DNA of 64,000 nt. Origin: Falsiroseomonas tokyonensis. GTDB lineage: Bacteria > Pseudomonadota > Alphaproteobacteria > Acetobacterales > Acetobacteraceae. Shown here piece by piece: positions 1,952 to 64,000 of this stretch; within the stretch, counting starts at the first letter, position 1, and the number at the start of each line of letters is the position of its first letter. The DNA is taken from NCBI RefSeq assembly GCF_019024325.1, contig NZ_JAFNJS010000006.1, forward strand, positions 124,001 to 188,000, given 5' to 3'. The notes below the pieces were generated by a model that was not told the origin of the DNA, did no database searches, and saw only the letters and a program-made list of their open reading frames with translations. The translations under genes and the position numbers were made by a program.

Positions 1952-1973
1952 CGCGCCGACCGAAAGTCCCGAG

Positions 1974-2351: not shown

Positions 2352-2357
2352 CCGGGG

Positions 2358-3611: not shown

Positions 3612-3625
3612 GAGAGGAGTCGAGG

Positions 3626-4615: not shown

Positions 4616-4644
4616 CGGCTCGCACCTGCGATAGGCTGCGGCGC

Positions 4645-4944: not shown

Positions 4945-5018
4945 GCCGCCCGCCTTGCCGCCCAGCCTGACCCAGCCTAGGAAACGCGCGCCAAAAACCG
5001 CTCGAGGAGCAAAGCGCG

Positions 5019-5369
5019 ATGTCCAAGATCACCCGCCAGGGCAGCAACCAGATCCTGTCCTCCTCGGTGGAGTACCACAACTTCGTCTACCTGGCCGGCA
5101 TGACCGCCGATGACCTGTCGCAGGACATCACCGGCCAGACCCGCCAGGTGCTGGCGAAGATCACCGCGGCGCTGGAAGCCAACAACACGGACCATACCCG
5201 CCTTCTGCAGGCGCAGATCTGGCTGAAGGACATCCGCGACCGCGACGCCATGAACAAGGTCTGGATCGAGTGGCTGGGCGATGCCGGCCGCCCGGTGCGC
5301 GCCTGCGTCGAGGCGAACATGGCCGATCCGCGCCACCTGGTGGAGATCATGGTCACCGCCTGCCGCTGA
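5019..5369 (+). CDS. RidA family protein
   Basis: A 116-residue RidA/YjgF/YER057c family protein. Classical members are cytosolic trimers that hydrolyse reactive enamine or imine intermediates formed by PLP enzymes. The family arginine is present in GRPVRACVEAN, with the usual KIWLKD-like strand (QAQIWLKDIRDRD) before it. A ribosome-binding site AGGAG lies at 5005-5009. The gene stands alone, is followed by a clear hairpin terminator, and is not linked to an amino-acid pathway here, so its specific amine substrate is unknown. Confidence 0.88.
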   Translation: MSKITRQGSNQILSSSVEYHNFVYLAGMTADDLSQDITGQTRQVLAKITAALEANNTDHTRLLQAQIWLKDIRDRDAMNKVWIEWLGDAGRPVRACVEANMADPRHLVEIMVTACR

Positions 5370-5378
5370 CGCTATGGC

Positions 5379-5408
5379 ACCCCCGCGCCCAGGCGCGGGG
5401 GTTCTGTT
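5379..5408 (+). terminator. Rho-independent terminator after ridA-like gene
   Basis: A perfect GC-rich stem ACCCCCGCGC / GCGCGGGGGT with a CCAG loop begins ten bases after the RidA stop codon and is followed by TTCTGTT. It is the best intrinsic terminator on the plus strand in this window. Confidence 0.75.
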
Positions 5409-5707
5409 GCCAAAACCTTACCTATTCGGCAACGACATGACAGCCATGTGACTCGATACTGGCACCCCTCCATTCCGTGTTTCGGCTGTTGCATTCCTGC
5501 CGCAACACTGTGGCTTCGTGTTTCGCCGTGTTTCATTCTAGGAAGACGGTCTTGTCCTGACCGCTCATCCCCAGCAGGCCTCGACGAATTGCCGCGTATT
5601 TCGCCGTGTTTCATCACAGCGGCTTGCCCCCTCCCGCCGGCCACAGTTACCGCAGTGCTCAAGCAGGCCATGGGGGCTCTGCCGAAGGCGAAAACAGGGG
5701 TCACTCA
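5409..5707. promoter_or_regulatory. intergenic region with repeats upstream of CHAP gene
   Basis: This stretch of 299 bases (338 including the terminator) has no gene with the local codon signature. It holds an inverted repeat GTTGCC (5406-5411) / GGCAAC (5428-5433), four copies of GTGTTTC (5477, 5518, 5528, 5607), and a 16-base direct repeat TTTCGCCGTGTTTCAT at 5521-5536 and 5599-5614, 78 bases apart. A weak sigma70-like promoter, TTGCCC (5624) with 17-base spacing to TTACCG (5647), could drive the CHAP gene. Regulator unknown. Confidence 0.45.
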
Positions 5708-6595
5708 ATGCGGGCAAAAGGCACGCTGGCAGCACTCTGTGTCCTGATGGGCGCCACGGTAATGCATCTGCCGGCGGAAGCCGCGGAACGCGGCACCCGC
5801 TCGGCGCAGAAGCAATCCCGCCCCGCCCAGGCCGCCACCACGCCCAGCCCCGCCGCCCTGCGCCAGCAGGCCGCCCAGCGGGCCAGCGCCACCCGCCAGG
5901 CCGCCGCCGCGCAGCGCAATGCGCAGCGCGGCCATGCCAACCCAACCCGGCGTGCCGCCAGCCAGTCCCAGGAAGTGCGGCGCCTGTCCCAGCAGGATGC
6001 GCCGGCCGCCACCCGCATCGCCTCGCTCGGCGTCATGCGCCCGGCGCTCGCGGCCGGTGTCGGCGCGGGCACGCCGATCCTGCCGGTCTCCGTCACCTCC
6101 GGCCTGTCCTGCGTGCCCTTCGCGCGCATGGCGACCGGCATGAACATCAGCGGCGATGCCCGCATGTGGTGGCACAATGCCGCCGGCAGCTATGCCCGCG
6201 GCAATGCGCCGGAACGCGGCTCCGTCCTCGCCTTCACCGCCTCCGGCGGCATGTCGCGCGGCCATGTGGCGGTGGTCAGCCGCGTGCTCGGCCCGCGCAC
6301 CATCCATATCGACCATTCCAACTGGGGCGGCCCCGGCATCCGCCGCGGCAGCGTCATGCGCGGCGTGACCGTCATGGACGTGTCCGACCGCAACGACTGG
6401 ACCGCGGTGCGCGTCCAGGTCGGGCACGACAACTCCAGCTTCGGCCGGACCTATTCCACCTATGGCTTCATCTATAACCGGCCGGTCGGCACCCGCATGA
6501 TGACCGCCGAGGCGCCCGGCTACATGGAGGTCGCCCAGGCTTCCCCGCATGCGGCGCAGCACCAGCGCCTGGCCGCGCAGCTCTTCGGCCAGTGA
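5708..6595 (+). CDS. secreted CHAP-domain amidase/peptidase
   Basis: An exported protein of about 295 residues. A signal peptide (MRAKGTLAALCVLMGATVMH, cut near AEA at 23-25) is followed by a basic Ala/Gln/Arg-rich low-complexity linker (about 27-100). A C-terminal CHAP domain follows, with catalytic Cys135 in SGLSCVPFAR, His186 in SRGHVAVVSR and an acidic/amide partner in HIDHSNW (202-205). CHAP enzymes cleave peptidoglycan peptides or amidate/hydrolyse peptide bonds, so it likely acts in the periplasm or outside the cell on the wall. I chose the ATG at 5708, where the signal peptide begins; the upstream in-frame ATG at 5606 lacks coding character. It has its own repeat-rich upstream region and is followed by a small hairpin. 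Confidence 0.87.
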   Translation: MRAKGTLAALCVLMGATVMHLPAEAAERGTRSAQKQSRPAQAATTPSPAALRQQAAQRASATRQAAAAQRNAQRGHANPTRRAASQSQEVRRLSQQDAPAATRIASLGVMRPALAAGVGAGTPILPVSVTSGLSCVPFARMATGMNISGDARMWWHNAAGSYARGNAPERGSVLAFTASGGMSRGHVAVVSRVLGPRTIHIDHSNWGGPGIRRGSVMRGVTVMDVSDRNDWTAVRVQVGHDNSSFGRTYSTYGFIYNRPVGTRMMTAEAPGYMEVAQASPHAAQHQRLAAQLFGQ

Positions 6596-6602
6596 GGCGT
6601 CC

Positions 6603-6621
6603 CCCTCGCAGCTTGCGAGGG
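6603..6621. terminator. hairpin between CHAP and cupin genes
   Basis: A perfect 8-bp stem CCCTCGCA / TGCGAGGG with a GCT loop lies seven bases after the CHAP stop and seven bases before the cupin start. It has no T-run, so it may be an attenuator or a mRNA end rather than a full terminator. Confidence 0.4.
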
Positions 6622-6628
6622 TCCGCAG

Positions 6629-7135
6629 ATGCATGAACGCGGCGCCGATGGCGCGGAACGTCTGAGGCTCGGCGACTGCGCCGGCCAGGGCGGCCAGATC
6701 CCCAACAATCCGCGCCTGCCGGTGCTGCTGCACCGCGGCGCCACCCCGCCGGGCGATCCGGCGGCCGCCGAGGCGCTGTTTGCCCGGCATGGCTGGCCGC
6801 CGGCCTGGCGGAACGGGATCTACGACTTCGACCATTACCACCCGAACGCGCACGAAGCGCTGGCGGTTGCGCGCGGCCATGTGCGGGTGCGGCTGGGGGC
6901 CGAGGCGGGGGTGACGCTGGACCTCGCGGCCGGCGATGTGGTGGTGCTGCCCGCCGGCACGGCGCATCGCAACCTCGGCCAGTCCGAGGATCTGCTGGTG
7001 GTCGGCGCCTATCCGCCCGGCGACCCGCCCGAGCAGTTCACCACCCGGCCGGGCGAGCGCGAGCGGGCGCTGCATGCCATCCCCGCCACGCCCGACCCGC
7101 CATGCGATCCGGTGACGGGCCTCGCCTACCGGTAG
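6629..7135 (+). CDS. cupin-domain protein (YjlB-like)
   Basis: A 168-residue cytosolic single-domain cupin. The segment GGQIPNNPRLPVLLHRGA is characteristic of the YjlB group, and the cupin histidines appear in FDHYHPNAHEAL and PAGTAHRNLG, the expected metal-binding strands. YjlB-type cupins have no firmly established reaction; they are assumed to bind a metal and a small metabolite. The gene starts 33 bases after the CHAP gene beyond a small hairpin, and its TAG stop touches the stop of the convergent acyltransferase gene. Confidence 0.8.
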   Translation: MHERGADGAERLRLGDCAGQGGQIPNNPRLPVLLHRGATPPGDPAAAEALFARHGWPPAWRNGIYDFDHYHPNAHEALAVARGHVRVRLGAEAGVTLDLAAGDVVVLPAGTAHRNLGQSEDLLVVGAYPPGDPPEQFTTRPGERERALHAIPATPDPPCDPVTGLAYR

Positions 7136-7143
7136 CTACCGGT
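7128..7143. repeat. perfect palindrome spanning two convergent stop codons
   Basis: The 16-base sequence ACCGGTAGCTACCGGT is its own reverse complement. It contains the TAG of the cupin gene on the plus strand and the TAG of the acyltransferase gene on the minus strand, which are directly adjacent. The two 3' ends therefore carry identical sequence. Confidence 0.8.
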
Positions 7144-8101
7144 CCGGCTGGAAGACGTGGGCCATGAACCATTGTTCGGGATGGGCGCGCACCACGCCCT
7201 CCACCACCCGGTCCAGCGCCGCGATATCCTCCAGCACCGCCGCCCGCCCGCGCCCCTGCGGGCCGATCGGCACGGGGGGCAGGAAGTGCAGCCGGAAGCG
7301 GGCTGCCTCGCCCAGCCGCTCGGCATAGGCCGGCACCAGCGCGGCGCCGGTGGAGGAGGCCAGGCGCACGGCGCGCATGATGTTGCCGTCCATCCGCAGC
7401 GGGCGGCCGAGCGAGGGGGCATGCACCCGGCCCTCCCAGAATTCGTCCACATAGTACAGCAACGCCGCCTCGCGGCTCTCCAGCACGCGATGCGCCTCGA
7501 AGACCGCGCCCAGCGTCGGCGCCACGGCAACGGCGGCCTGCGGCACGCCGGCGCTGCGGCTGCGCCCCCGCGCCCGGTCGGCGATGCGCATGCGAAAGCG
7601 GTTGGGCAGGCGCTGGTAGATGGCGTGAAAGGGAATGCCGAGCTGGGCGAGGCCGGCATGCACCACCTCCCAATTGCCGACATGCAGCCCGGCCACGATC
7701 AGCGGCTGGCCGCCCCCCCGCGGGCCCAGCACATGCTCGGCGCCCACCACCTCGATGCGGCCCTCGGCGCGGAAGCGGGACAGGGCGGCGAACTCGCCAA
7801 AACAGCGGCCGACATGGGACCAGTGGGCGGCGAGCAGCGCCTCCACCTCCGCCGGGCTCGCCTCCGGCCGCAGCTGGCGCAGCAAAGCGCGGACGCGGTC
7901 GGAGCCGACCTGCCGCTTGCGCCCGGCCCGCAGCCCCATGCGGGCGCCGAAGGCGGAGGCCGCCTCGGTCGGCAAGGCGCGCATCGCCTGGTGCGGCAGC
8001 CAGTCGGCCAGGCCCTGCAGCGGGTCGCGCAGCCAGTAGCGCAGCAGCGCCTGGCGTTCGGACCAGCGCCAGGGGGGGGCGGGGTAGAGGTGGTCAACCA
8101 A
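7136..8101 (-). CDS. LpxL/HtrB family lysophospholipid acyltransferase
   Basis: A 321-residue acyltransferase of the lipid A lauroyl/myristoyl transferase family. The acyl-binding HX4(D/E) motif is present as GLHVGNWE, and the family end FMAHVFQPDR is intact. Members transfer an acyl chain to a lipid at the cytoplasmic face of the inner membrane; unlike most, no long N-terminal membrane helix is visible. Translation probably starts at TTG 8101, overlapping the P450 stop by eight bases, so it is coupled to the P450. Lipid A need not be the substrate: the pairing with P450 and alcohol dehydrogenase suggests a lipid or secondary metabolite (inference). Confidence 0.82.
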   Translation of the reverse strand: MVDHLYPAPPWRWSERQALLRYWLRDPLQGLADWLPHQAMRALPTEAASAFGARMGLRAGRKRQVGSDRVRALLRQLRPEASPAEVEALLAAHWSHVGRCFGEFAALSRFRAEGRIEVVGAEHVLGPRGGGQPLIVAGLHVGNWEVVHAGLAQLGIPFHAIYQRLPNRFRMRIADRARGRSRSAGVPQAAVAVAPTLGAVFEAHRVLESREAALLYYVDEFWEGRVHAPSLGRPLRMDGNIMRAVRLASSTGAALVPAYAERLGEAARFRLHFLPPVPIGPQGRGRAAVLEDIAALDRVVEGVVRAHPEQWFMAHVFQPDR

Positions 8102-48377: not shown

Positions 48378-49897
48378 CGGGGCAGCAGATCCTGTTCGGC
48401 ACGCAGCGGGAAGACGGCGCCGCGCTGCGCCAGCGCGCATCCCGCGCGGCGGCGGGCCTGGCCGCGCTGGGCGTGGCGGCCGGCGACCGCGTGGCCGCGA
48501 TGCTGCGCAACGAGCCCGTCTATCTGGAGGTGATCCTGGCCGCCGACCGGCTCGGCGCGCCGCTCGTCGCCATCAACTGGCATTTCCGCGCCGACGAGGC
48601 CGGCCATGTGCTGGCCGATAGCGGGGCGCGCGTGCTGGTCGTGCATGCCGACCTGCTGCCACAGATCGCGGCGCTGGTGCCGGCGGGTGTCACCGTGATC
48701 GTCGTGCCGACGCCGCCCGAGATGATCGCGGCCTATGGCATCGCCGAGGTGCAGCCCGTGCCGCCCGGCCTGCTGTCCTGGCCGGACTGGCGTGATGCGC
48801 ATGCGCCGTGGACGGCGCCGGCGCCGCCATCGCTCGGCATGATGCTCTATACTTCCGGCACCACGGGCCGCGCCAAGGGCGTGCGGCGCCTGCCGGGCAC
48901 CCCGGAACAGCACGATGCCGCACGGCGCATCCGCACGCTGGTCGGTGGCGCCAAGAAGGGGATGCGCACGGCGATCGTCGGGCCGATGTACCATGCCGGC
49001 CCCGCCTCCAACGCGCGCATCGCGCTGGCCGAGGCCTCGCTGATCCTCGTCCTGCCCCGCTTCGATGCGGAGGAGCTGCTGCAGGCGATCGAGGCGCATC
49101 GGCTGACGCATCTGGCGCTGGTGCCCATCATGCTGGTGCGGCTGCTGAAGCTGCCGGAGGCGGTGCGGGCGCGCTACGACGTCTCCTCGCTGGAAGGCGT
49201 GACGCATGGCGGATCGGCCTGCGCGCCGGATGTGAAGCGCGCGATGATCGCCTGGTGGGGGCCGATCCTGTCCGAGACCTACGGCTCCACCGAGGCCAGC
49301 CTGATCACCTCGGTGGGCGCGGCGGAATGGCTCAGCCATCCCGGCACGGTGGGCCGTGCCTTGCCCGGCACCTCCATCCGCATCCTGGACGAGGAGGGCC
49401 GGATGCTGCCGCCGGGCAAGGTCGGCGAGATCTTCGTCGATTCCGGCCCGAATGCCCTGCCCTTCACCTACCACAACCTGCCCGGCGAACGCGCGAAGGT
49501 GGAACGCGATGGCCATGTCACCAATGGCGATGTTGGCTATCTCGATGCCGAGGGCTACCTCTATGTCACCGACCGCAAGCGCGACATGGTGATCTCGGGC
49601 GGGGTCAACATCTACCCGGCGGAGATCGAGGCGGTGCTGATCACCCATGCGGATGTCGCGGATTGCGCGGTCTTCGGCGTGGCCGATCCGGAATATGGCG
49701 AGGCGCTGGTCGCCGCCGTGCAGCCGCGGCAGGGCGCGGCGCCGGAGGCCGCGGGCATCGCCGCGTTCCTGCGCGCCAGGCTCGCCGGCTACAAGGTGCC
49801 GCGCCGGATCTGGATGGTGCAGGACATGCCGCGCGACAGCATGGGCAAGGTGTTCAAGCGGCGCCTGCGCGAGGCCTTCGCCGGCACGGCGGCGTGA
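48374..49897 (+). CDS. AMP-dependent acyl-CoA ligase
   Basis: A 507-residue acyl-CoA synthetase. ATP loop is LYTSGTTGRAKGVRRLPGT, the adenylation motif is SETYGSTEASLITS, the hinge region is KRDMVISGGVNIYPAEIE, and the catalytic Lys is in DSMGKVFKRRL. It charges the imported carboxylate with CoA, the first catabolic step in the operon. It overlaps both neighbours by four bases. Confidence 0.93.
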   Translation: MTGQQILFGTQREDGAALRQRASRAAAGLAALGVAAGDRVAAMLRNEPVYLEVILAADRLGAPLVAINWHFRADEAGHVLADSGARVLVVHADLLPQIAALVPAGVTVIVVPTPPEMIAAYGIAEVQPVPPGLLSWPDWRDAHAPWTAPAPPSLGMMLYTSGTTGRAKGVRRLPGTPEQHDAARRIRTLVGGAKKGMRTAIVGPMYHAGPASNARIALAEASLILVLPRFDAEELLQAIEAHRLTHLALVPIMLVRLLKLPEAVRARYDVSSLEGVTHGGSACAPDVKRAMIAWWGPILSETYGSTEASLITSVGAAEWLSHPGTVGRALPGTSIRILDEEGRMLPPGKVGEIFVDSGPNALPFTYHNLPGERAKVERDGHVTNGDVGYLDAEGYLYVTDRKRDMVISGGVNIYPAEIEAVLITHADVADCAVFGVADPEYGEALVAAVQPRQGAAPEAAGIAAFLRARLAGYKVPRRIWMVQDMPRDSMGKVFKRRLREAFAGTAA

Positions 49898-52739: not shown

Positions 52740-55700
52740 CTACTGAACGCCGCTCCGCTCGTCCAGCGCCCTCATGCGGCGCTGCAGCTCGCCGCGATCC
52801 TGGCGCGGCGCCGCCCGGGTCGCCCGGTCGGTGCGGTCCATCGTGCTGTTCCGCAGCGCCTCCCGGATCCGGTTGGGCGCAAGCGTGAGGCCGGCCCGCG
52901 CCGCCTCCGCGCGGATCTCGGCGATTTCGGAGGACCGCCCTTCCCGGTTGGCCTGGATCATGCGCGTCAGGTAGCGATCCTCCTGCCGCCGGCGCTCGGC
53001 CTGGCGGGCCAGCTGGCGCCGCTGCACCGCGGACTGCTCTGCCCACCGGGTCGGCTGGAGGCCGGCGGCGCGGGTCGCCAGCTCGCCCGTGGTCGGCTCG
53101 ATCGGCGACTGCGTCGGGCGGCGCGGGTTCGTCCAGACGGCCCGACCGTCGCCGAAGCCCTCCATGCTCCAGAACCGGCTGCTGGTGATGCTGGCGCCGT
53201 TGGCCGCGGCCTCCAGCGCCTTCAGCGGCATGGCGGCCGGCGAGACCATGGTGAGGGTGTCCACGAGCTGGGCGCTCTGCTGCTCGGCCTGCCGCAGCGC
53301 CTGGAGGGTGCCCCAGGCCGGGCCGGTGAAGTCGCTGCCCTGGTCCGGCAGGAAGCCGGCGCCCATGCCCACGCGCTCCGAGATGGCGGCGCCGAACAGG
53401 CCAGGCAGCCCGCGCGCCAGGGCCTGCACCGTGCCGCCGACCGCGTCGCCAAACCCCTGCGCATCGGCCACGAGCTCGGCGACCGCGTCGGACGGCTTCA
53501 GCTTGAAGACCAGCTCCGCGAGCCAATCCAGCAGCTGCAGCCCCGGCAGCGCCAGCGCGCCGCCAATCAGGAACAGCGCCAGCAGGAAGCGGCCGATCTC
53601 CGCCCCCCGCAGGCTGAACATAAAGCCCAGCTGCTGGAGCATGAAATTCTTGAACTGCAGGGGGATGCGCGCCCACTGGGCCCGCAGCAGCTCCGGCTTG
53701 TTGGCGTTCCCCTGGTGGAACTGGGTGCGGGTCAGGATGGCGGTGGCCTCTGCCTGCGCCGCGGCCGGCGACGCGCCGCGCGCCTCCGCCCGGTGGTAGG
53801 CGCCCAGATAGGCCGCAGCCCGGTTCAGCCGCTCAGCCGTCTCGAAGGGCAGCATGGAGAGGCGCTTGATGGTGTTCTCCGCCTCCGCCAGCAGCGGGTT
53901 GTCCTCGGCGAATCGGAACCGAGTGCGGATATCGGCCCGCATCAGCAGCTGCGCGTCGCTCGACATGCGGCCGGGCGTGTCCTGGTTCCGCGCCTGGCTG
54001 ACCAGCGCGGCCGCGGCCCGCTGCACACCAATGCCGGTCCACTTCGCGCCGAGCACGGGGAAGGTGTTCACCATGGTCTGGGACAGGTTCACCAGCGCCG
54101 AGCCCAGGTTGAACAGCGCGCCCAGCTTGAGGTGCGCCATGTCGGAGGTGATGCCGGACACCACGGATCGCGTGGGGAAGGCGCCCCCCTTCTCGCGCGC
54201 CTGATACATCCGCCAGCCCAGATAGCCGGCCATGGCGGCGCCCGTGATGGGCGTGCCCGCGGCGCCAACCAGCAGCCCGGGCGTCATGGCGTAGATGACG
54301 GAGCGCGAAACCGGCATCGAGGAGAGCCAGGCGTCGATCTGCTCCTCGCCGCCCTGCTTGGACCCGTTCACGTCCCGCCACCAGGCTTCGAGCGCGTCCT
54401 GCAGGTTCTTTTTGCCCTCCAGGCGGAGGCTGGTCGCCCGGGTCGGGGACAGGCCTTCGGCCTCGGCCGTCTCGACATAGGCGAACTTCAGCTTGTCCAT
54501 CTCGACGTAGCGCACCGTCTGGCCGATGTGGGTCCGCATCACCTTTGCCAGATCCTCGGAGAAGCCCTCCGCGCCCTTGCGCTGCATGCCCGGAGCGAAG
54601 GTGCGGCGGCGGCTCCGGCGGCGCGCGACGCCGCGCAGCAGGTCCACGGTGCTGGCGGTGATGCCCTCCTCCGCCGCGGCGGCCTCCAGCCCCCGGCGCA
54701 GCCGTGCATAGGCCGCATCGGAGAGGGTGGCGCCGCCATGGGTGGAGGGGAAGACGACCGTGCGGGGCTCGACGGTCAGCGTCGCATCCGGGTTCTCGCG
54801 CAGATAGTCGGCCGCCGCGGCGATCGCGCGGTCCTTCGAATCGTAGAAGCCCTGGTCGGATGTGATCTCCACCCGGATCGGCTCGCCGTTCTCGTCCACG
54901 CCCTCCTGCACGAACAGCCGCCAGGAGCCATAGAACTTATGCGGGGCGTAGCCCTGTAGGCGCCGCACGCTGGTCGCCTGCAGCCGGGCCTCCAGGTCAT
55001 CGTATTCATCCTGGAGCTTGGTCATCGTGGCCTGCAGGTCCGGGTCAGCCAGGCGCATGCCGCGGAGCATGTCGTTGATCTGCTCCACCTCGGCCGCCTG
55101 CGCGGTGAGGTCGCCCTTCCCCGCCTTGATCCGGCCGGTCAGGTAGGTGCGGCGGCGGTAGGCCTTGGCGTATTCCTCGCTGGGAACGCTCCCGCCGGCC
55201 ATGGCGCGCTGCATGCGGCGCCAGACCTCGGCCTTCCGCGCCTTCACCTTCGGCATCATGGCCCGGCGGTGCTGGTCCACCAGACGCGCCTGCTTCACGA
55301 AGAGGCGGTTGATGGCGCCGGCGGCGCGCGCCTCCGCGGGGTTCAGCCCCATCTCATCGAAATAGGCCCGGGCGCTTTCCGGCGTCTCCAGGTCGATGCC
55401 CTCGGCGTCGGCCTGCCAGATGGTGGCCTGCACCTTGGCCCAATCGCCCCTTCCCTTCGACAGGGCGGCGCGGATCCGGTCGTATTCCTCGGTGAGCCGG
55501 GTGATCCACACGGATTGCCGCTGCTCGCTGCGGATGCCCTGCTGGATCAGCGCGGCCAGCGCAGGGAAGCGGCGGAACAGCTTGTCCGGGGTGCGGAGGT
55601 AGCGGCCGAACATGGTCAGGTCGCTCGCGACCTCCATGTCCTTCACCGTCACGCCGGCCGGCGTCGGCGCGCCGCGCCACAGGCGCAGCATCACCTTGAT

Positions 55701-58700
55701 GTTTTCCTCCCGCACCGCGGCCGCCATGCGAGCGAGAGCGCCCTGCCCGCCCACCGCCCGGGTCAGCGGGTCCCACAGAAAGCGCCGGAAGGCCGCCGGG
55801 TCGAAGGGGGTGGAGTAGAGCGGGCTGCCGCCGCCGGCGGGCATGCGCCGCCCCTCGCCCTCGCGCCGGGTTTTCACCCATTCGGCGGCCTGCGGCGTCT
55901 TGGAGATGACGCGCTGCTTCTGGTCGGCGGCGATGCTGTAGAAGGCGCGCAGCGCCTCCGGCAGCAGATACCGGTCGAACCGCTTCCGCATGTCCTTGCC
56001 GGAGCCCGCGAGGTCGCCGATGGCGCGGCGCAGGTCGCGGTTCAGGAACCAGACCGCCCCCTCCTTCTTGCTGGAGGGGGCGGTCATGACGAACTGGCCT
56101 TCGGTGTCGCGGGCAATGCGCGCCGCGCCGTCGCTGGTCTCGATCATCGGCAGGTCGAGCGAGGAATCCAGCAGGAAGGCCTGGGCTTCGTCAGCGGCGA
56201 CGCTCGGCGCTTCTGCCGCCTCGAAGGCTTCCGGATCGAAGCCAGCCGGCAGGATGATCCCCTGCCGCAGGTCGCCCTCTGCCGTGTAGAAGTTGGCGAT
56301 CTGGCCGCGGCGCTTGGCGAAACCGGCCAGCAGGTTGCCGGTGACAATGAACCGCTCCTCGCGCACCTCGCGCGCCGCGCGCTCCAGCCGCTCCAGGAAC
56401 GCAGCGTGGTGGTCATCCGGCGCGACCAGGCCGCGGATGATGATGTCGTCTCCGCCCTTCAGGTCCTTCCCGCTCTGCGGCTGGTTGGTGGGCGTGAAGA
56501 CGCCGGCGAGGCTGGTCTCGATCCGCCTTCCGTCCTCCAGCATGACGGACAGATCCCAGCCGCCCGGGGCCAGCGGGTTGCCCTTGTCCGGCGGCGACAG
56601 GTTCACCACCAGCCCTTCCTCCGGGAAGGCGTCCCCCACCTGCACGCTGGCGAAGTTGCCGGGGGTGATCTGCATGACGACGGCGGTGACGGCGTCGCGC
56701 TGCTGGTCCAGGCGGTCCCTGGCCTTCTTCGCGGTGTCGGCTTTCTTGACCTTGCCGCTGATTTCGGAGGCCGCGGCAGCGTGCCACTCCTCGATCTGGT
56801 CCAGCATGTCGCTGCGCCAGGTGTCGGCTGGTGCGCCGGCGGCCTGCTGCAGCGCCGCGGCAATCTCCTCCCGCTTCATCGTCCTGAACCGGTCGGCCGT
56901 CCCCAGGCCCAGCGACTCGGCCACCCGGGCGCCGATGGTGTCGAGCGCCGGCGGCTGCACCTGCTTCCGCACATCATAGCGGCCGATGACAGAGGGGCCG
57001 GCGAACAGGCTGCCGGCCTTGCCCTTGCCCTCCGTCCACGGCTTCTCGTCGAGCAGCTTGGCGTCCAGTTCCAGGGTCTTCGCCTCCAGCGCGTTCGTGC
57101 CCTGGGCGTCGGCCTGCTCGATTGCGCGCCGATACTGTGCCTCGATCTCCGCATAGACCTCCTCCTGGCGCGCCAGCGGCAGCAGGGGGATGCGGCCGGT
57201 CACGCGGCGCGCGGCGTCGGTCGGCTGGTCGTAATCGTCGCGCACCTTCGGCTCGCCCAGGGCCCGCCACAGCCCGCCGTCCTCCTCCACGATGCGGGCA
57301 ACCACCTCGTCGCCATACTGGTTCATGAAGTCCGGGCTGTTTTCCGCCCCCAGCGCGCCGCGGCGGTTGGCAGTCGTGGCCGCGGCCAGGCTGGCCATCT
57401 TCTTCGCCAGCACCGCGGCGGGGCGCTTCTCGGCCGGCACGCCGGCGACCAGTTGCAGATAGCCGGGGGCGATGACCTGGCCGGTGCGATGCACGCGGCC
57501 CAGCATCTGCATGAAGGTGTCGATGTTCGCCTCGGCCTGGGCGATCAGCATGATCCGCCGGCGGCGATCGCCGAAGGTCGCGTTCGCGTGCAGGGACAGG
57601 CCCGTGGCGCCGCTCTGGTTCAGGATCATGGCGTCGATCCGCTCGCTATCCGGGAGCGGGCGCTGCGCCGTGCCGCCGTTGAAGCGGCGGATGGCGTCGA
57701 GGCGGCCTGCCGTGCTGGTCTCCTTCTGCGGGCGCCGCCGGTAATAGACCTTCCCGTCAGCCCGGTAATCCGCCGCCTCGGTGCGGCCGGTCACCTCGCC
57801 CACCTTGTAGCCGGCGCGCATCAGCTCCGACCGGATATAGTCGATCGGCGAAACCGGGAACTGCTCCAGGTCGATCTGCGCGATGCGGCGCTCGGCGGCG
57901 AGGTATTTGGCCCTGCCCTCGGCGCCCAGGCTTTCGGGGGTCAGCCAAATCTCCTCGGCCTTCTCGCCCTTCTTCATGAAGGGCCGCTTCATGGCCAGCC
58001 GCAGCTGGCGCCGCAGATAGCGGTTCAGCAGGGAGTTGAAGGTTAGGTCCAGCACGTCGCCGCTGGCCGCGTTGTTCTGCTCGGCGAACTCCTCGATGAA
58101 GCTGCCCATGGTGTTCGCCACCGCGATGACGGGCTTCTCGCCGCGCTTCAGCGCGTCGATCGCCAGCCGCGCGGTGCCCGGCGCCTTGGACGCGAGCAGC
58201 AGCTGGTTGATGAGGTTGTGCATCACCGCGCCGAAATTGGCGCTCTCGACGCCAGCGCCGGCCGAGCCCTCGCCGCCGGTCAGCCGCTTGCCCTCCGCCT
58301 TGGCCTCCTTGTCCATCTCCTTCGCGACCGCGGCCACGATCTGCGAAATCTCGAAGATGTCGGCCAGCGCGCGGGAGACGGCGTCATAGGTGGCCTGGTT
58401 CACCTCGATGGGCTCCAGGTCGTATGTGACGCCGGCGAAGGACCGCTCGCGCCGGATGTATTGCCCGCTCTCGGCCATCATGGCGGAGACGATCTGCTGC
58501 ATGGGCACGCCGCCGGTGGCGATGGCATTGGCCAGGGCGGACAGCTTCGGCACCGCCAGGCGCATGTCCGTCTTGATGCCGTAGAGATCCATCACGTCGG
58601 GGCGCTTCGCCCAGGTCGCGGAGGAATAGACCGCGGAGCGGGCGGCGGAGAGGAAGCCGCGGAAGATGGTCCCGCGATCGCGCCCCGCTGGCTTGCTGTC

Positions 58701-61700
58701 GGCGTCGCCGGCATTGTGGGACTCGTCCAGGATCAGGAAGGCCTGCGGGGCGATTCGCTGGAGGAACGTGATCCGCGCGGTATCTGCCTCGGCGATCTGC
58801 TGCATCTGCGAATAGCTGGTGAAGACGATGCGCCGGTCCCGCTGCAGCGCGCGGGCCTCCATCTCCGAAAGGGCCTGGTTGTGCCGCTTCGGGTCCGGGG
58901 TCCGCAGGCGCGGGCCGTCCGGCTCGTCGTTCAGCGCCAGGCTCAGGCCGGCATTGGTCGGGAGGATCTGGCCCAGCGCATCGGGCATGCCGATGTCGGT
59001 CAGGTCGCGCGCCATGTCGGCATAGAGGTTCGGCTTCTCCGTCACGAAGACGGGGATCAGGTTCTGCTTCAGCGCATAGCGGATCATGGCCGCCACGAAG
59101 CGGCCCTTGCCCACGCCGGTCTGGTCGCCGATGACGAAGCCCGCGTCGTCGTCCAGGTTGTGGATGCCGAGCGCGATGGCGTCGATCTGCTCCGCCGAGA
59201 AGTAGCGGCGCACCTCGTCCGGGGAATAGTCGAGGCGGTCGGCCACGAACTCCACCAGGGGCATGCCGGCGCGCTGCTCGGCGCGCTCCAGTGCCTTCGC
59301 CACCGCGGTCTGCATGTTGACCGGCACCAGGGTGCCCACGCCGTTCGCATCGGCCCGGGGCTTGTAGGCCACCTGGCGATCCGTCTCCTCGTCCTGCGGC
59401 TGGTCGCGGCGGGCTGGCGCCGGCGATTCCGGCAAACCCCCCCTATTTCCCGGAACCGGGGTCTGCTCGGGCGCATCCTCCAGCGTCTCCCGCCCGGCCT
59501 GCAGGTCGCCGGCGAAGCGGGTGATGTAGGGGCGCAGGGCCTCGGCGAACTGCCGCCGGCGCTCCGCCGGGATGGCCTGGGTGATGGCCTGCACCAGGCG
59601 GCGCAGCAGCTCCTTGGTGTCGGCCCAGGCCTCGCGGAAGTTGGCCGCCGCCTCGCGCAGCAGCGGCAGCACCCGGGAATACTGCTCCGGGTCGAACAGC
59701 GGGTTGCTGCTGATCTTCCCGCCCTTGGGCAGCAGGATGGATTCGAGCGCGGCCGCGATGTCGCCGATGCCGCGGGCGGTGCTGGCGGCGGCGGAGGCGG
59801 CGACGGTGGAGGCGGGGCGGGGTGCCGGCTCTTCCCCGGCTCGGGGCGTTATTTCAGCCCGTGGTGCGGGCGCCGGCGCGGGCCCGAACTCCTCGTCCAG
59901 AACCTCGCCGAACAGCGCGTCTAGGTCAGCTTCTCCATCGGCAGGAACGCCGCCGCCAGCCACTGCTCCAGGCTGGTTGCCTTGATCGCCTCCACGGCCT
60001 CCGGCATCAGCCGCGGCTGCATTTTCGCCGGCAGGTCCAGCACCAGGTTCAGATAGTCCGGCCACGCCGGGTTCTCCGCCAGCAGCTCCCACACCTGCCG
60101 GTGCGGCTCCTCCCGCTGCGGCTCGCCCGCCAGCCACAGGCCGCGGGCCTCGAGCTCCTCCTGCAGCAGCGCGACCGCGGCCGCCGGCTCCGGGTGCCGC
60201 GCCACCAGCCACTCCACCCGGTCGGTCAGCCTCTCCCGGTAGTCCTGCCGGGTCAGGCCGGCCGCCATCTGCGCCTGCGTCAGGGCGATCGCCCCGGCTG
60301 CCGGGTTCGCCCCCGGCGGCGCCCAGGCCAGCATCCGCCCCGGCATCGGCCACGGGCTGTCCGCGATCTCCATTCAGCACCTCCTCCAGCGCGTCCCACG
60401 CGCTGTAGATCCGCGGGGCTCCCTGGGACGGCAGGCGCCGGTCGCTGCGCCCGCGTCCCTCGATGACCACCACATCCACCGGCCAGGCCGCGCCCTGCTT
60501 CGCGTAGAGCTCGCCGGCCACCGTGAAGTGGTCCGTTACCCGATAGTTTCGGTAGAGCGTGAGGAAAAACTCGCGCTTCGCCTTGCCATTGTAGGCATCG
60601 GCCCGCTTCTGCGGGTCGGTGACGGTCTTCGCCACACCGCCCAGGATCAGCACCGCCCGGCCGTCGTCGGCCATGCCCTCCAGGGCGCGCAGCGCGATGG
60701 CGTGGTCGATCTCGCCCGTCTCGTAGCCGTCCTGGATGAAGCTCATATCGAAGCGCCGGGTGCGGCCGTCCTCGCCACGCACGGCGCCGAAGGGCGGATT
60801 CGCGATGACCGCGTCGACGTTCTCGCCCGCGAAGCTGCCCTCCCCCTCCCCGCCGGCGGCGTCGGCGGAGGTGGGCCGGAAGCCCTGCTCGATCAGCGCC
60901 GCGGCGCGCTCGGGGTCAAGCTCATTCACCACGGCCCGGTCCGGCGTGGCGCCGATCAGCAGCATGCCCGTGCCGGCGGTGGGCTCCAGCACCGTGCTGC
61001 GCGGCGTGATGCCGGCCAGCTCGGACGCCAGCCATGCCAGCGGCGCGGGCGTGCTGTAGGCCTGCCGCTCGATGCTGTCGGAGGTCCGGGTGCCCAGCCG
61101 CGGCTGCCGGCCATACAGGTCCACCAGGCGGCGATAGACATGGAGGGGGCCGCGGCTGCGGCCGTTGCGCACCAGCGCGCGCGCCGCCAGCACCACGCCA
61201 AGCTCGGCCGCCTCGTCCACCATCTTCGCGTCAGCGGTGCCGGGCTCGACCTTCCGCCCCAGGATGCCGGCGGCGAAGGTGCGGGCCTGGCCGATCGAGG
61301 CGAAGGCGCGGTCGCCGGAGAAGGCCTCGCCGAACTGGCGTGCGAGGCGGATGCCTTCGGTGCCCAGCGCAGGCTTATCATCCATGGCTGGGGCGCTATC
61401 AGCCATGGCTGGCGCCTTATCTGCCATGGTCGCCTTGGGCTGGCGCACGCCCGGCATGTCCATGAAGTCGGGCTGCTGCGTCGCGCCCGGGTCGAACAGC
61501 CCACCCGCCGGCGGCGGCGCGGCGCCCCCGCGCAGGGGCTTGTCTGCCATGACGCCGAGCCGGTCGCGGTCGGTGACCGGCGCAACACCTGGGATCAGGC
61601 TCTGCTCGCCCGTCCCGTCCAGCGTCCTTACGGTTTCGGTTTGGACCTGCGGCGGTCGGCTTCCGCCCCCACCTTTTCCACCGCCGTCGACAGTCGGCGA

Positions 61701-64000
61701 AGCTCCTGCTTCTGGCTCGATGTCAATCCAGTCTGGGAGGCCGCCCGCTTCCGGCCGTCCTTCACCAGCTTCGCCCGGTCCTGCGGCGGCAGGGGCTTCC
61801 TCATCCCACGGGATCTCCCATTCGCTGCCCTCGGGCGCGGCGTCGGCGGCCTCATCTACCGCATCCACCAAGTTGCGTTCCAGCACCATCACCAGCGCGT
61901 CGGCGATGTCCATCTCCTCGGCCGCCGCCATCGCGGCCGCCGCCTCGGCCTCGCCGGGCCGCAGCTTCGCGCCCAGCTGCTCCGCCATGTCGCGGATCTG
62001 GACCAGGCGCGCCGCATACTTCTCCGCCTCGGCCTCGGCCTGATACTCCTGCTGGCGCTGCCCCTTCCGCGTCTCGGGGTCCACCCCGCGGCCCCGCAGG
62101 TTGTTGTCGATCTCGGCCAGCAGGTCGGTGATCGTGTCGCCATCCTGCATCCAGCCGGATTCGACGGCTGCTTCCAGCGCGCGGTCGAAGGCCATGCCGG
62201 TGGGGCGGATCAGGCGGCCGAAGCCTGGCAGGAAGGGGTTGGCCTGGCCGGCCATGAACCGCACGTCGCCCCGGTCGTCGCGCAGCCCGCCGCGGGAGGC
62301 GATGAACTCGGAGAGGTTGTCGGGGGCGCGGCTGCCGCTGGCTTCGAACCCCTCGCGCTGCCTGCGCTCGGCGCGCCGCTGCTCGCGCTCGCCGCGCTTC
62401 ACCGCGGCGGCGGCCTCGGCCCGCCACCGCATGCCCTCGGCGATCGCGCCCGGGTTCAGGGGGTTGCGGGCCCGGCCGGCCGCCAGCCAGGTGCGCAGCT
62501 CGTCGAGCGGCATGCTGGTGATGGCGCCCATGCGCCGGTCGCCGCTGCCGTCGTTGAAGGCGGCGCGGTAGGCCGCCTCTGCCGCCTGCTGGCTGGGGAA
62601 GCCCATCAGGGCCTTGTGCTCGTCGAAGCGGCCCGTGTCCGGGGCGACCTGGTCCACGACGAAGACCGGCAGCGCGGCATTCTCCGCCTGCGGCCCCAGG
62701 TAAACGTCGACCTCGTCGCCGTCTTTCCCCTCGCTCCGGGCGAAATAGCCATAGTGCGCCGGCATGGCGACTGACCACGGCCGGCCGTCGCGCCCCACGC
62801 CGGTGCGGTTCTGCCCGCGCGGCGTCTCGATCGCGACATCCAGGCCGTGCAGCCGCACCCGGCCCTTCGCATAGTTGCCGGCCTGGGCCTGCGCCGGGGT
62901 TGGCGCCGCGGTCACGCCGGCGGCGGCGTCCACATCGCCCGGCCGCTGGGCCTGCACCGGCGCGGCGCGCGTGCCGTCCCCCTCCCGGGTGATCTGCGGA
63001 TAGAGGCCCTGCTGCAGGCGGCCATTGGCCTCCTCGATGCTGGCGGCGATCGCGGCGTCGCTCGGCGTGTCGGTCTGGTCGATCCAGTCGCCATCGGGGT
63101 CGAGCACGGAGAACACGCCGTCCTCCTCCACCACGGTGAATCCCTGCGGCAGCTGCTGCTGCCAGCGCGCCACGTCGGCGGCGCGCTGCCGCGCGATGAC
63201 CTCGGGCGACGGCGCGGCCAGGGCCGCCTCCAGGGACATGCGGCCGCCGGGCGGCGGCGGAGGGGCAGCGGGCGGCGCCACAGGAGGAGTCGCACCAGCC
63301 ATCGCAGAAGGCTGTTGTGGCGCCGCCACGCCCGCACCCGGACCCGCCGCAGGCTCGGAGCCTTCGGCCGCGGGCACCCCGGGCGCAACTTGGTCGGGTG
63401 GTGCCGCCGCCCCCGCCGGCGCAGCCTGGGCACCCGGGGAGGCGGGTGCCGGCGCAGCAGCAGCAGGGGGCGGCGGCGTCCCCGCGCCGGCCGGGACCAA
63501 CGGCGGCGACGGGGATTCGAAGGTCGGGGCCAGCGTCTCGCGCAGGATCTGGGTTCCGCGAGACGGAGCAGACGGGGCCTCGCCGGCCGGCGGCCGGCGC
63601 ATCTCCTGGATGGTGCCGAACGCCGTGGTGCCGGCTGCCTGCGGCGCAGCCCCCAGCATCTCGAACAGCACCTCGGAAGGGGTGATCTCGCCGGTGCTCG
63701 CGACCTGCGCGCCGGCCTCGCCGAGCCCTTCGGTTCCGACCTCGATGCCGACGTTGCGCGCCACCCGGCCGGCATTGCGGAGCGCGCCAGCGCCGCGGCG
63801 CAAGCCGGCGGCCGTGCCGAACGACGCCACATCCGCCCCCGCGACCACCGCCGCGCCACGCGAGGCGTCCTGGCGCGCCTGCGCCACCATGTCGGGATTC
63901 GCCCGCACGAAAGCGGTCACCGCGGCGCCGTCCATCGGGTCCACGCCCGCGGCCTTCAGCCGGTCGCCCAGGATCTCGGCGAAGCGCGGGCCCGCATCGG
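52740..64000 (-). CDS. giant phage polyvalent protein, 5' end outside window
   Basis: An uninterrupted frame of at least 3,734 codons, numbered from GTG 63944, that stays open to the window edge. Visible parts: helical Ala-rich start; Pro/Ala linker (about 110-215); pyrophosphatase-like domain (about 355-495; HYGYFARSEGKDGDEVDVYL); a GEQSLIPGVAPV motif (780); adenine-type methylase with VLEPTAGTGMLLIG and IANPPFGA (965-1190); low-complexity linker (1190-1341); strawberry-notch NTPase/helicase with DQTGVGKGRF (1607), DESHNAGD (1736) and GRVHRTGQ (2148); long helical region; RIPLQFKNF (about 3427), like the PLxRFG region of phage proteins; and a hydrophobic segment near 3455. Such proteins (DarB-like) are packaged and injected to protect incoming phage DNA. 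Two linkers hold nested ORFs. Confidence 0.85.
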   Translation of the reverse strand, partial: DAGPRFAEILGDRLKAAGVDPMDGAAVTAFVRANPDMVAQARQDASRGAAVVAGADVASFGTAAGLRRGAGALRNAGRVARNVGIEVGTEGLGEAGAQVASTGEITPSEVLFEMLGAAPQAAGTTAFGTIQEMRRPPAGEAPSAPSRGTQILRETLAPTFESPSPPLVPAGAGTPPPPAAAAPAPASPGAQAAPAGAAAPPDQVAPGVPAAEGSEPAAGPGAGVAAPQQPSAMAGATPPVAPPAAPPPPPGGRMSLEAALAAPSPEVIARQRAADVARWQQQLPQGFTVVEEDGVFSVLDPDGDWIDQTDTPSDAAIAASIEEANGRLQQGLYPQITREGDGTRAAPVQAQRPGDVDAAAGVTAAPTPAQAQAGNYAKGRVRLHGLDVAIETPRGQNRTGVGRDGRPWSVAMPAHYGYFARSEGKDGDEVDVYLGPQAENAALPVFVVDQVAPDTGRFDEHKALMGFPSQQAAEAAYRAAFNDGSGDRRMGAITSMPLDELRTWLAAGRARNPLNPGAIAEGMRWRAEAAAAVKRGEREQRRAERRQREGFEASGSRAPDNLSEFIASRGGLRDDRGDVRFMAGQANPFLPGFGRLIRPTGMAFDRALEAAVESGWMQDGDTITDLLAEIDNNLRGRGVDPETRKGQRQQEYQAEAEAEKYAARLVQIRDMAEQLGAKLRPGEAEAAAAMAAAEEMDIADALVMVLERNLVDAVDEAADAAPEGSEWEIPWDEEAPAAAGPGEAGEGRPEAGGLPDWIDIEPEAGASPTVDGGGKGGGGSRPPQVQTETVRTLDGTGEQSLIPGVAPVTDRDRLGVMADKPLRGGAAPPPAGGLFDPGATQQPDFMDMPGVRQPKATMADKAPAMADSAPAMDDKPALGTEGIRLARQFGEAFSGDRAFASIGQARTFAAGILGRKVEPGTADAKMVDEAAELGVVLAARALVRNGRSRGPLHVYRRLVDLYGRQPRLGTRTSDSIERQAYSTPAPLAWLASELAGITPRSTVLEPTAGTGMLLIGATPDRAVVNELDPERAAALIEQGFRPTSADAAGGEGEGSFAGENVDAVIANPPFGAVRGEDGRTRRFDMSFIQDGYETGEIDHAIALRALEGMADDGRAVLILGGVAKTVTDPQKRADAYNGKAKREFFLTLYRNYRVTDHFTVAGELYAKQGAAWPVDVVVIEGRGRSDRRLPSQGAPRIYSAWDALEEVLNGDRGQPVADAGADAGLGAAGGEPGSRGDRPDAGADGGRPDPAGLPGEADRPGGVAGGAAPGAGGRGRAAAGGARGPRPVAGGRAAAGGAAPAGVGAAGGEPGVAGLSEPGAGPAGENAAAADAGGRGGDQGNQPGAVAGGGVPADGEADLDALFGEVLDEEFGPAPAPAPRAEITPRAGEEPAPRPASTVAASAAASTARGIGDIAAALESILLPKGGKISSNPLFDPEQYSRVLPLLREAAANFREAWADTKELLRRLVQAITQAIPAERRRQFAEALRPYITRFAGDLQAGRETLEDAPEQTPVPGNRGGLPESPAPARRDQPQDEETDRQVAYKPRADANGVGTLVPVNMQTAVAKALERAEQRAGMPLVEFVADRLDYSPDEVRRYFSAEQIDAIALGIHNLDDDAGFVIGDQTGVGKGRFVAAMIRYALKQNLIPVFVTEKPNLYADMARDLTDIGMPDALGQILPTNAGLSLALNDEPDGPRLRTPDPKRHNQALSEMEARALQRDRRIVFTSYSQMQQIAEADTARITFLQRIAPQAFLILDESHNAGDADSKPAGRDRGTIFRGFLSAARSAVYSSATWAKRPDVMDLYGIKTDMRLAVPKLSALANAIATGGVPMQQIVSAMMAESGQYIRRERSFAGVTYDLEPIEVNQATYDAVSRALADIFEISQIVAAVAKEMDKEAKAEGKRLTGGEGSAGAGVESANFGAVMHNLINQLLLASKAPGTARLAIDALKRGEKPVIAVANTMGSFIEEFAEQNNAASGDVLDLTFNSLLNRYLRRQLRLAMKRPFMKKGEKAEEIWLTPESLGAEGRAKYLAAERRIAQIDLEQFPVSPIDYIRSELMRAGYKVGEVTGRTEAADYRADGKVYYRRRPQKETSTAGRLDAIRRFNGGTAQRPLPDSERIDAMILNQSGATGLSLHANATFGDRRRRIMLIAQAEANIDTFMQMLGRVHRTGQVIAPGYLQLVAGVPAEKRPAAVLAKKMASLAAATTANRRGALGAENSPDFMNQYGDEVVARIVEEDGGLWRALGEPKVRDDYDQPTDAARRVTGRIPLLPLARQEEVYAEIEAQYRRAIEQADAQGTNALEAKTLELDAKLLDEKPWTEGKGKAGSLFAGPSVIGRYDVRKQVQPPALDTIGARVAESLGLGTADRFRTMKREEIAAALQQAAGAPADTWRSDMLDQIEEWHAAAASEISGKVKKADTAKKARDRLDQQRDAVTAVVMQITPGNFASVQVGDAFPEEGLVVNLSPPDKGNPLAPGGWDLSVMLEDGRRIETSLAGVFTPTNQPQSGKDLKGGDDIIIRGLVAPDDHHAAFLERLERAAREVREERFIVTGNLLAGFAKRRGQIANFYTAEGDLRQGIILPAGFDPEAFEAAEAPSVAADEAQAFLLDSSLDLPMIETSDGAARIARDTEGQFVMTAPSSKKEGAVWFLNRDLRRAIGDLAGSGKDMRKRFDRYLLPEALRAFYSIAADQKQRVISKTPQAAEWVKTRREGEGRRMPAGGGSPLYSTPFDPAAFRRFLWDPLTRAVGGQGALARMAAAVREENIKVMLRLWRGAPTPAGVTVKDMEVASDLTMFGRYLRTPDKLFRRFPALAALIQQGIRSEQRQSVWITRLTEEYDRIRAALSKGRGDWAKVQATIWQADAEGIDLETPESARAYFDEMGLNPAEARAAGAINRLFVKQARLVDQHRRAMMPKVKARKAEVWRRMQRAMAGGSVPSEEYAKAYRRRTYLTGRIKAGKGDLTAQAAEVEQINDMLRGMRLADPDLQATMTKLQDEYDDLEARLQATSVRRLQGYAPHKFYGSWRLFVQEGVDENGEPIRVEITSDQGFYDSKDRAIAAAADYLRENPDATLTVEPRTVVFPSTHGGATLSDAAYARLRRGLEAAAAEEGITASTVDLLRGVARRRSRRRTFAPGMQRKGAEGFSEDLAKVMRTHIGQTVRYVEMDKLKFAYVETAEAEGLSPTRATSLRLEGKKNLQDALEAWWRDVNGSKQGGEEQIDAWLSSMPVSRSVIYAMTPGLLVGAAGTPITGAAMAGYLGWRMYQAREKGGAFPTRSVVSGITSDMAHLKLGALFNLGSALVNLSQTMVNTFPVLGAKWTGIGVQRAAAALVSQARNQDTPGRMSSDAQLLMRADIRTRFRFAEDNPLLAEAENTIKRLSMLPFETAERLNRAAAYLGAYHRAEARGASPAAAQAEATAILTRTQFHQGNANKPELLRAQWARIPLQFKNFMLQQLGFMFSLRGAEIGRFLLALFLIGGALALPGLQLLDWLAELVFKLKPSDAVAELVADAQGFGDAVGGTVQALARGLPGLFGAAISERVGMGAGFLPDQGSDFTGPAWGTLQALRQAEQQSAQLVDTLTMVSPAAMPLKALEAAANGASITSSRFWSMEGFGDGRAVWTNPRRPTQSPIEPTTGELATRAAGLQPTRWAEQSAVQRRQLARQAERRRQEDRYLTRMIQANREGRSSEIAEIRAEAARAGLTLAPNRIREALRNSTMDRTDRATRAAPRQDRGELQRRMRALDERSGVQ
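59921..60373 (-). CDS. nested ORF 1: 150-residue protein inside the giant gene, +1 frame
   Basis: A complete 150-codon ORF within the giant gene, same strand, shifted frame. It has a near-ideal site (GGAGGAGG, six bases before ATG), an in-frame TGA directly before the ATG, and a TAG stop. By eye 146 of 150 codons end in G or C, against about 40-50% in the giant frame over the same bases; the giant frame is normal on both sides and the switch falls at this ORF's start and stop. The product is soluble, helical and tryptophan-containing (DYRERLTDRVEWLVARHPEP, SLEQWLAAAFLPMEKLT). No family recognised. Confidence 0.7.
   Translation of the reverse strand: MEIADSPWPMPGRMLAWAPPGANPAAGAIALTQAQMAAGLTRQDYRERLTDRVEWLVARHPEPAAAVALLQEELEARGLWLAGEPQREEPHRQVWELLAENPAWPDYLNLVLDLPAKMQPRLMPEAVEAIKATSLEQWLAAAFLPMEKLT
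61628..61804 (-). CDS. nested ORF 2: 58-residue basic protein inside the giant gene, +1 frame
   Basis: A 58-codon ORF in the same shifted frame as nested ORF 1, over the linker between the pyrophosphatase and methylase parts of the giant protein. MRKPLPPQDRAKLVKDGRKR is followed by SSQKQELRRLSTAVEKVGAE and a basic tail. About 49 of 58 codons end in G/C, against about half in the giant frame, whose product here is Gly/Pro/Glu filler. GGGAG lies ten bases before the ATG; the stop is TAA at 61628. An upstream in-frame ATG (61855) has no coding signature. Function unknown. Confidence 0.5.
   Translation of the reverse strand: MRKPLPPQDRAKLVKDGRKRAASQTGLTSSQKQELRRLSTAVEKVGAEADRRRSKPKP

Follow-up and report, generated by a model that had tools for sequence, protein, structure and literature searches.

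A very probable overprinted gene on the methylase-helicase linker of a giant polyvalent-protein gene in Falsiroseomonas tokyonensis

Introduction

Out-of-frame genes nested within other genes are already known as a kind (PMC11855218, PMC8160284, PMC8227390). The locus described here is an open reading frame (ORF) of 150 codons that lies out of frame inside a giant polyvalent-protein gene of Falsiroseomonas tokyonensis, on contig NZ_JAFNJS010000006.1; the whole stretch of 64,000 nucleotides that was analysed is referred to as the window. The ShiLan-domain HNH genes found in the DNA methylase genes of actinobacteriophages (PMC11855218) resemble it in that a gene is nested in another frame, the host frame is free of stops and the nested frame folds. 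They differ in being mobile, patchily distributed insertions that encode a known HNH nuclease and start at GTG with no detectable ribosome-binding site, whereas the family of the window carries no known domain, mostly starts at ATG behind a strong Shine-Dalgarno sequence, is near-universal in its clade and is fixed between two domains. The comS gene in srfAB of Bacillus subtilis (PMC8160284) is likewise a small regulatory gene that is embedded, out of frame, in a much larger enzyme gene belonging to its own operon, but it is confined to a single bacterial operon. Among phages, the spanin gene Rz1 lies inside Rz, an overlap that is annotated in the BcepIL02 record; these genes encode lysis proteins, and the pair is known and annotated. 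The Rz and Rz1 products act as one complex, which makes them a model for the partner idea considered below. The comS peptide is much shorter than the nested product.

The DarB protein of phage P1 (PMC5512222) contains the same kind of methylase-helicase dyad and is a giant protein of the same class, but its helicase is of the SNF2 type and it exhibits no sign of the nested family. DarB protects P1 DNA in cis, and its ATPase has been argued to be needed (PMC5512222). The terms "overlapping", "alternative reading frame" and "frameshift" do not occur in the text of that paper. Among the matches listed in the open PubMed Central (PMC) literature, which does not cover subscription papers and preprints, no paper describes a nested gene within giants of the polyvalent or strawberry-notch type. 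We rate as new a protein family that is near-universal in its clade and encoded on a linker that is kept open but otherwise hardly constrained.

Results and discussion

The nested ORF of the window

The ORF at 59921-60373 on the minus strand is, very probably, a real overprinted protein-coding gene that lies fully on the methylase-helicase linker of the giant polyvalent protein. This high confidence, drawn from sequence comparison, covers the gene and its mode of encoding, with the partner step excluded. The features of the nested gene are as follows.

52740..63998, minus strand, giant polyvalent-protein gene; continues past the window (open over 4075 codons in the assembly)
59921..60373, minus strand, nested (overprinted) gene, product P0001; 150 codons, +1 frame relative to the giant, ATG start
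60380..60387, minus strand, Shine-Dalgarno sequence GGAGGAGG, six bases 5' of the nested ATG
60374..60376, minus strand, TGA of the nested frame, immediately 5' of the nested ATG
59921..59923, minus strand, TAG stop of the nested gene
59925..60374, minus strand, giant-frame reading of the nested bases; Gly/Ala/Pro-rich linker, predicted to be unstructured

The original prediction described a 150-codon ORF one frame off the giant, with its own Shine-Dalgarno sequence six bases before the ATG, a TGA before that ATG and a TAG stop, and the ORF reading recovers each of these. The ORF is located wholly within another coding ORF in a different frame, and the duplex of GGAGGAGG with the 16S tail has an energy of -13.4 kcal/mol. 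The GC content at codon positions 1, 2 and 3 of the nested frame is 0.77, 0.49 and 0.97, and 146 of the 150 codons end in G or C, as had been counted by eye. The depression of the giant frame over the same bases is also borne out, with a third-position GC content (GC3) of 0.60, 0.44 and 0.48 in the three 50-codon blocks mainly within the nested ORF, compared with 0.90 for the whole giant ORF. Eight minus-strand ORFs of at least 100 amino acids are nested in the giant; 59921-60373 is the one with the coding-like pattern of high GC at position 3 and low GC at position 2, and the other seven are without this pattern. The product P0001 is acidic (net charge -8, isoelectric point (pI) 4.8) and mostly helical by prediction.

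Two claims about the giant frame stand in part. Its length of 3,734 codons is true inside the window only, since the edge of the window truncates the ORF; the open frame of the assembly begins at about window position 64967 and has 4075 codons. A normal giant-frame composition on both sides of the nested ORF had also been claimed, and this does not hold just past the nested stop, where the block 59745-59894 (GC3 0.84, position 2 0.76) is still Ala/Pro-rich. It is the comparative data, not the single sequence, that make the nested ORF more than a chance occurrence.

Relatives of the locus

Direct searches with P0001 of phages, plasmids, IMG/VR and GTDB contigs did not find a relative, and when 385 genomes of the class were searched with a profile, the window locus itself was the sole match; a weak match to P0001 in one related genome, G037 (E-value 2.3e-4), has one stop inside. 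Gene callers commonly reject long overlaps on the same strand, and the nested family is for this reason outside the searched protein-family libraries. Relatives were gathered via the neighbouring methylase and helicase, together with phage records. The resulting set consists of 109 non-redundant loci, window included, from which identical-linker duplicates had been removed and seven non-member loci left out (L018, L019, L023, L026, L027, L031 and L033). Start and stop counts cover 107 loci, leaving out L058 and L148, and the 105-locus tests leave out L013, L058, L143 and L148 and products below 85 amino acids.

The +1 frame is open for at least 80 codons directly after the methylase in 107 of the 109 loci, with L013 and L143 among them cut by a contig end. 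The other two are L058, cut by a contig end after 44 codons, and the Pleionea locus L148, which has 55 codons and a short linker. The helicase follows downstream in the frame of the methylase at 105 of the 109 loci, the remaining four being three contig ends and L128, and the median distance from the end of the nested ORF to the helicase match is 21 bases. The original prediction named as a refuting case a homologue whose nested frame is broken while its linker is otherwise similar; this was looked for, and none is present in the 109 loci. A profile built from 60 nested proteins reaches 1e-3 in 83 of the 109 loci; among the 49 loci outside the profile model, 23 are found at 1e-3, at the nested place and in the +1 frame.

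By their record titles, the loci belong to seven phyla, namely Pseudomonadota, Cyanobacteriota, Acidobacteriota, Thermodesulfobacteriota, Planctomycetota, Bacteroidota and Moraniibacteriota. A large share of the loci are from metagenome bins, where the assignment of phage contigs may be wrong. Of the loci in named bacterial records, the profile-significant ones belong to Pseudomonadota, Cyanobacteriota and Acidobacteriota. The best-documented relative is located on the complete plasmid pB of Chroococcidiopsis sp. CCNUC1, where the nested ORF matches the profile at 9.7e-16 and the PLSDB gene table, which is incomplete, lists the giant only. The complete Bacteroides phage BS-TP4 (L032, 10032-10391) has in this linker a +1 frame of 121 codons that is not recognised by the profile, and the gene annotated at this place is the giant of 5391 amino acids alone. 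The nested gene is also present where the host gene consists of the methylase and helicase only (1515 amino acids). In L128 (Acidobacteria bacterium 28-1 bin, 88-7191), the nested gene occupies the 3' end of a methylase gene that also encodes a zeta-toxin-like domain. No strawberry-notch helicase was matched in this locus, which may be chimeric and contains two further genes upstream, one for a DNA methylase and one encoding a type III restriction helicase domain.

A free-standing relative, which is not part of the original prediction, was identified in Coleofasciculus sp. LEGE 07092 (L129:2265-2783, minus strand). This ORF of 172 codons matches the nested family, has its own ATG and is encoded on the other strand, some 4 kb from the nested copy in the same locus. 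The match has an E-value of 4.9e-8 with the full profile and 4.5e-6 without the cyanobacterial members, whereas the best of 2000 shuffles reached 0.12, and the other frames of its strand are open for at most 69 codons at four sampled points. It is a single case, and it was not among the matches when the whole genome assembly was searched separately.

Outside the set, the longest +1 stretch at the nested place of Acinetobacter phage MD-2021a is 34 codons, and six of 14 bacterial methylase-helicase loci (L018, L019, L023, L026, L027 and L031) have no profile match. P1 DarB was considered as a wider family member and rejected: its longest +1 frame, of 177 codons, has no start with a strong Shine-Dalgarno sequence within its first 250 bases, and a frame of that length arises in 66 of 2000 codon shuffles.

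The loci L080 and L092 encode nested proteins that are 96% identical, with methylases at 68% and helicases at 88%. As the nested identity is far above that of the methylases, the linker segment seems to have been exchanged by recombination inside the giant gene.

Selection on the two frames

Changes were separated by their effect in both frames with a count method that has no transition/transversion model. The main set consists of 24 disjoint pairs, chosen and aligned by linker DNA alone at an identity of at least 0.62; disjoint pairs share no locus, and some are from the same close group. The ratio of nonsynonymous to synonymous change (dN/dS) is 0.51 in the nested frame (95% interval 0.47-0.56) and 1.07 in the giant frame (0.96-1.20). 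The nested value is below the giant value in all 24 pairs, and the giant value is below 1 in 10 of them. The pattern is reversed in the adjacent methylase, where the same code returned 0.25 (0.24-0.28) for the giant and 0.87 (0.79-0.98) for a mock +1 frame; as this control is 0.87 and not 1, the method reads slightly low. A stricter set of 17 closer pairs yielded 0.45 for the nested frame and 1.07 for the giant, with 0.90 and 0.25 for the mock frame and the giant in the methylase. Over all 244 candidate pairs by linker DNA, nested amino-acid identity is above that of the giant in 234, equal in one and below in nine. These comparisons, which the original prediction had proposed for each frame, indicate that the nested frame is under purifying selection and that the giant frame is neutral over the linker.

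The giant frame is nevertheless kept open. Resampling the nested codons synonymously gave an expectation of 4.3 loci with an open giant frame, against 105 of 105 observed, and resampling the giant codons gave 37.5 with an open nested frame, again against 105 of 105; because the loci are related, these expectations are not p-values. At the 31 of the 105 loci with less than 50% GC, the mean expectation of an open nested frame is 0.11. Nested GC3 is above giant GC3 over the same bases at all 105 loci. By these counts, the giant frame is selected to stay open over the linker, a result beyond the original prediction, while the sequence of the linker hardly matters, and both frames are kept by selection.

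Independent start of the nested gene

A start with a Shine-Dalgarno score of -5 kcal/mol or lower is located near the methylase end at 95 of the 109 loci, compared with 6.6% of 1941 control windows from the same genes and frame that were scanned identically. The score is the duplex energy plus a penalty for GTG and TTG, taken in a single window of fixed position at the methylase end. At the nested start, the commonest bases are GAAGAACTGAAGGAGAAGCTAAATG. The chosen start is ATG at 100 of 107 loci, and a stop in the nested frame directly precedes it at 39 and falls within 10 codons at 83 of the 107. One caution is that the Shine-Dalgarno bases encode a Glu/Lys/Leu-rich peptide in the giant frame, so part of their conservation could come from that frame. 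In BS-TP4 no Shine-Dalgarno sequence is present at the first ATG codons of the nested frame, and the lack of such a sequence is usual for Bacteroidota.

Predicted structure and family searches

AlphaFold2 modelling of 60 nested sequences provided a predicted local distance difference test score (pLDDT) of 90 and a predicted template modelling score (pTM) of 0.84, and the model contains two short strands and nine helices of at least four residues. For these 60 loci the giant frame scored a pLDDT of 57.4 and a pTM of 0.15, with no secondary structure. The nested products are net negative in 98 of 106 cases, with a median pI of 4.6.

The family search suggested for the 150-residue product was run and did not assign it to a family. 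Pfam and PHROGs searches with the 60 nested members found no convincing family; the best matches (7.3e-4 in Pfam, 3e-3 in PHROGs) each concern one member and are taken as chance. No NCBIfam family fits nine nested members, and no PADLOC model matched three nested proteins. The best hit of a profile search of the PDB was to GCN4 constructs (E-value 0.72), and Foldseek analysis provided no match at 0.001 or below in either the PDB (34 matches up to an E-value of 10) or BFVD (70 matches).

Proposed mode of encoding and role

An independent gene whose shadow supplies the methylase-helicase linker, as originally proposed, is supported by the open frame, the gene's own start, selection and a fold in the nested frame only. 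The nested frame carries the protein-level selection, and the giant frame over the same bases serves as a tether, since it is neutral in sequence yet kept free of stops. Ribosomes would start the small protein at its own Shine-Dalgarno sequence and ATG inside the giant message, so that one mRNA would yield both products. The locus is an unusually clean natural case of overprinting, in which one frame is under protein-level selection and the other need only avoid stops, and a hidden gene is retained at the same place in about a hundred viruses and mobile elements related to it.

It is possible, at somewhat less than even odds, that the methylase-translocase has in this small acidic helical protein a partner encoded in cis, be it a subunit, a chaperone or an on-off regulator. 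The methylase-translocase module would, as P1 DarB suggests by analogy, protect injected DNA from restriction, and the antirestriction methylase-helicase giants would gain a candidate missing subunit. The partner role would be in DNA modification and not in head assembly, because the nested gene stays with the host gene that has the dyad only, on a plasmid and in L128.

Several observations weigh against these readings. The count method reads slightly low and the loci are related, as given above. Pairs chosen by methylase identity alone, which admits pairs with hardly alignable linkers, exhibit dN/dS values of 0.70 (nested) and 1.19 (giant) in nested-frame alignments and 0.75 and 0.89 in giant-frame alignments; of the 311 pairs in this set, 229 have the higher identity in the nested frame, three are equal and 79 have the lower. 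Rank correlations over 699 pairs (nested with helicase identity 0.71, nested with methylase 0.63, methylase with helicase 0.81) do not show co-evolution. Twenty-six of the 109 loci, including L058, L148 and BS-TP4, miss 1e-3 with the profile, and what they share is place, frame and mostly start. The giant frame of L128 ends 11 bases past the nested stop codon, and those of L137 and L152 stop within the helicase. Finally, among all the matches, none indicates the function of the nested protein.

Alternative explanations

The alternative that survives best, though we consider it unlikely, is that the nested protein is a DNA mimic or inhibitor of host restriction or defence enzymes and acts independently of the giant. 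The protein is small, acidic and encoded inside an antirestriction-type gene, and a free-standing copy exists; but acidity is common among small phage proteins, and the fixed position of the gene suggests a tie to the dyad. The three proteins searched against PADLOC had no match, no solved fold matched, and neither Foldseek nor Pfam provided a significant match to known mimics, Ocr and ArdA not being compared one by one. An unrelated takeover protein would be a further, hypothetical rival to the partner role.

It is very improbable that the nested ORF is a selfish insertion of the homing type, comparable to the out-of-frame HNH genes of phage methylases. The layout is that of the PMC11855218 cases, with a stop-free host frame and out-of-frame coding in a phage methylase gene, and the identities of L080 and L092 suggest that the segment is exchangeable. 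However, neither Pfam and PHROGs searches with 60 members nor NCBIfam with nine returned an HNH or nuclease match, presence at 107 of 109 loci is not patchy, and most starts have a Shine-Dalgarno sequence, which was not detected for the HNH cases of PMC11855218.

Two further explanations are slightly less probable still, and about equally so. Under a programmed frameshift, ribosomes would switch from the giant to the nested frame close to the methylase end, and the nested reading would be an alternative C-terminal tail of a short methylase and not a separate protein. The nested frame does follow the methylase directly, and at 24 of 107 loci it is already open over more than 10 codons ahead of the chosen start. 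Against this stand the stops close before the start, the predominance of ATG with strong Shine-Dalgarno sequences (starts having been picked by Shine-Dalgarno score) and the separate ATG of the free-standing relative. Heptamers of the form X_XXY_YYZ occur in 8 of 107 loci and give the -1 frame, not the nested one; this search covered -1 sites only.

Alternatively, the giant frame may never be translated through the linker, in which case the real products would be the nested protein plus a methylase and a helicase made as separate units. Its neutral sequence there and the early stops in L128, L137 and L152 fit this account, but the giant frame is open at every one of the 105 loci where 4.3 were expected, and the helicase lies downstream in the same frame at 105 of 109. 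A DarB-like giant was also detected by mass spectrometry in JC1 virions (PMC9144972).

The weakest alternative, a chance open frame or two compensating indel errors, draws on the long spurious frames that high-GC DNA yields and on the 37.5 open loci expected by resampling, and it is dismissed as barely credible, since all 105 loci are open, the 31 below 50% GC included, codon-position pattern, starts, selection and fold all favour the nested frame, and the same arrangement recurs across unrelated assemblies, among them the complete Chroococcidiopsis plasmid, which disposes of the sequencing errors raised as a refutation in the original prediction.

A second nested ORF in Burkholderia Lessievirus giants

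The DarB-like giants of the Burkholderia Lessieviruses JC1, DC1, CSP3, BcepIL02 and BcepMigl (8 records, 5 phages) contain a +1 ORF of 107-112 codons upstream of the methylase. It has a strong Shine-Dalgarno sequence, and the annotation lists the giant only. The copy in Burkholderia phage JC1 is given below.

L180:6304-6642 (JC1 49303-49641), plus strand, Lessievirus +1 ORF with Shine-Dalgarno sequence

Pooled over 10 non-independent pairs, dN/dS is 0.38 for the nested frame and 0.68 for the giant, and a downstream control is reversed (0.57 and 0.14). The nested value is below the giant in nine of the 10 pairs, and both are 0 in the tenth. This pattern favours a gene, although here the giant frame departs from neutrality and the case is less well supported than that of the window family. 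The profile of the window family reaches at best 6.6 bits on the Lessievirus ORF, which is not significant at any search size, and a weak match to PHROG 6126 (virion structural) was found at 8.1e-4. As a tentative generalisation, rated below the partner role, disordered interdomain linkers of polyvalent giants may be a recurrent coding platform, on which phages and plasmids maintain entire small genes out of frame and whose nested products are missing subunits of injected DNA-protection machines, with the window family as one case and the Lessievirus ORF as a second that arose independently.

The giant gene and its surroundings

The following domains were identified in the giant.

62484..62894, minus strand, InPase domain (PF18823, 9e-47)
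60381..61157, minus strand, adenine-methylase region; NPPF motif, 48-63% identity with 12 aligned relatives
58389..59147, minus strand, AAA_34 half of the strawberry-notch-type helicase/translocase (PF13872, 6.1e-21, above cut-off)
57288..57806, minus strand, Helicase_C_4 half of the strawberry-notch-type helicase (PF13871, 3.1e-22, above cut-off)

The N6_Mtase match of the methylase region is weak (0.03, below cut-off). An adenine methylase is thus followed by a superfamily 2 (SF2) helicase in one giant chain, and the PHROG matches in this stretch include a DarB-like family. The giant gene and the prophage-like region around it continue past the window (L178, L179), with genes for a portal, a major head protein, head closure, a tail spike and primase/terminase-like proteins. 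The surroundings look like a prophage because portal, major head and head-closure genes are located beside the giant. Just past the nested stop, at about 59877-59927, the giant frame encodes a short acidic DLDALF-like motif that, as judged by eye only, recurs in several relatives.

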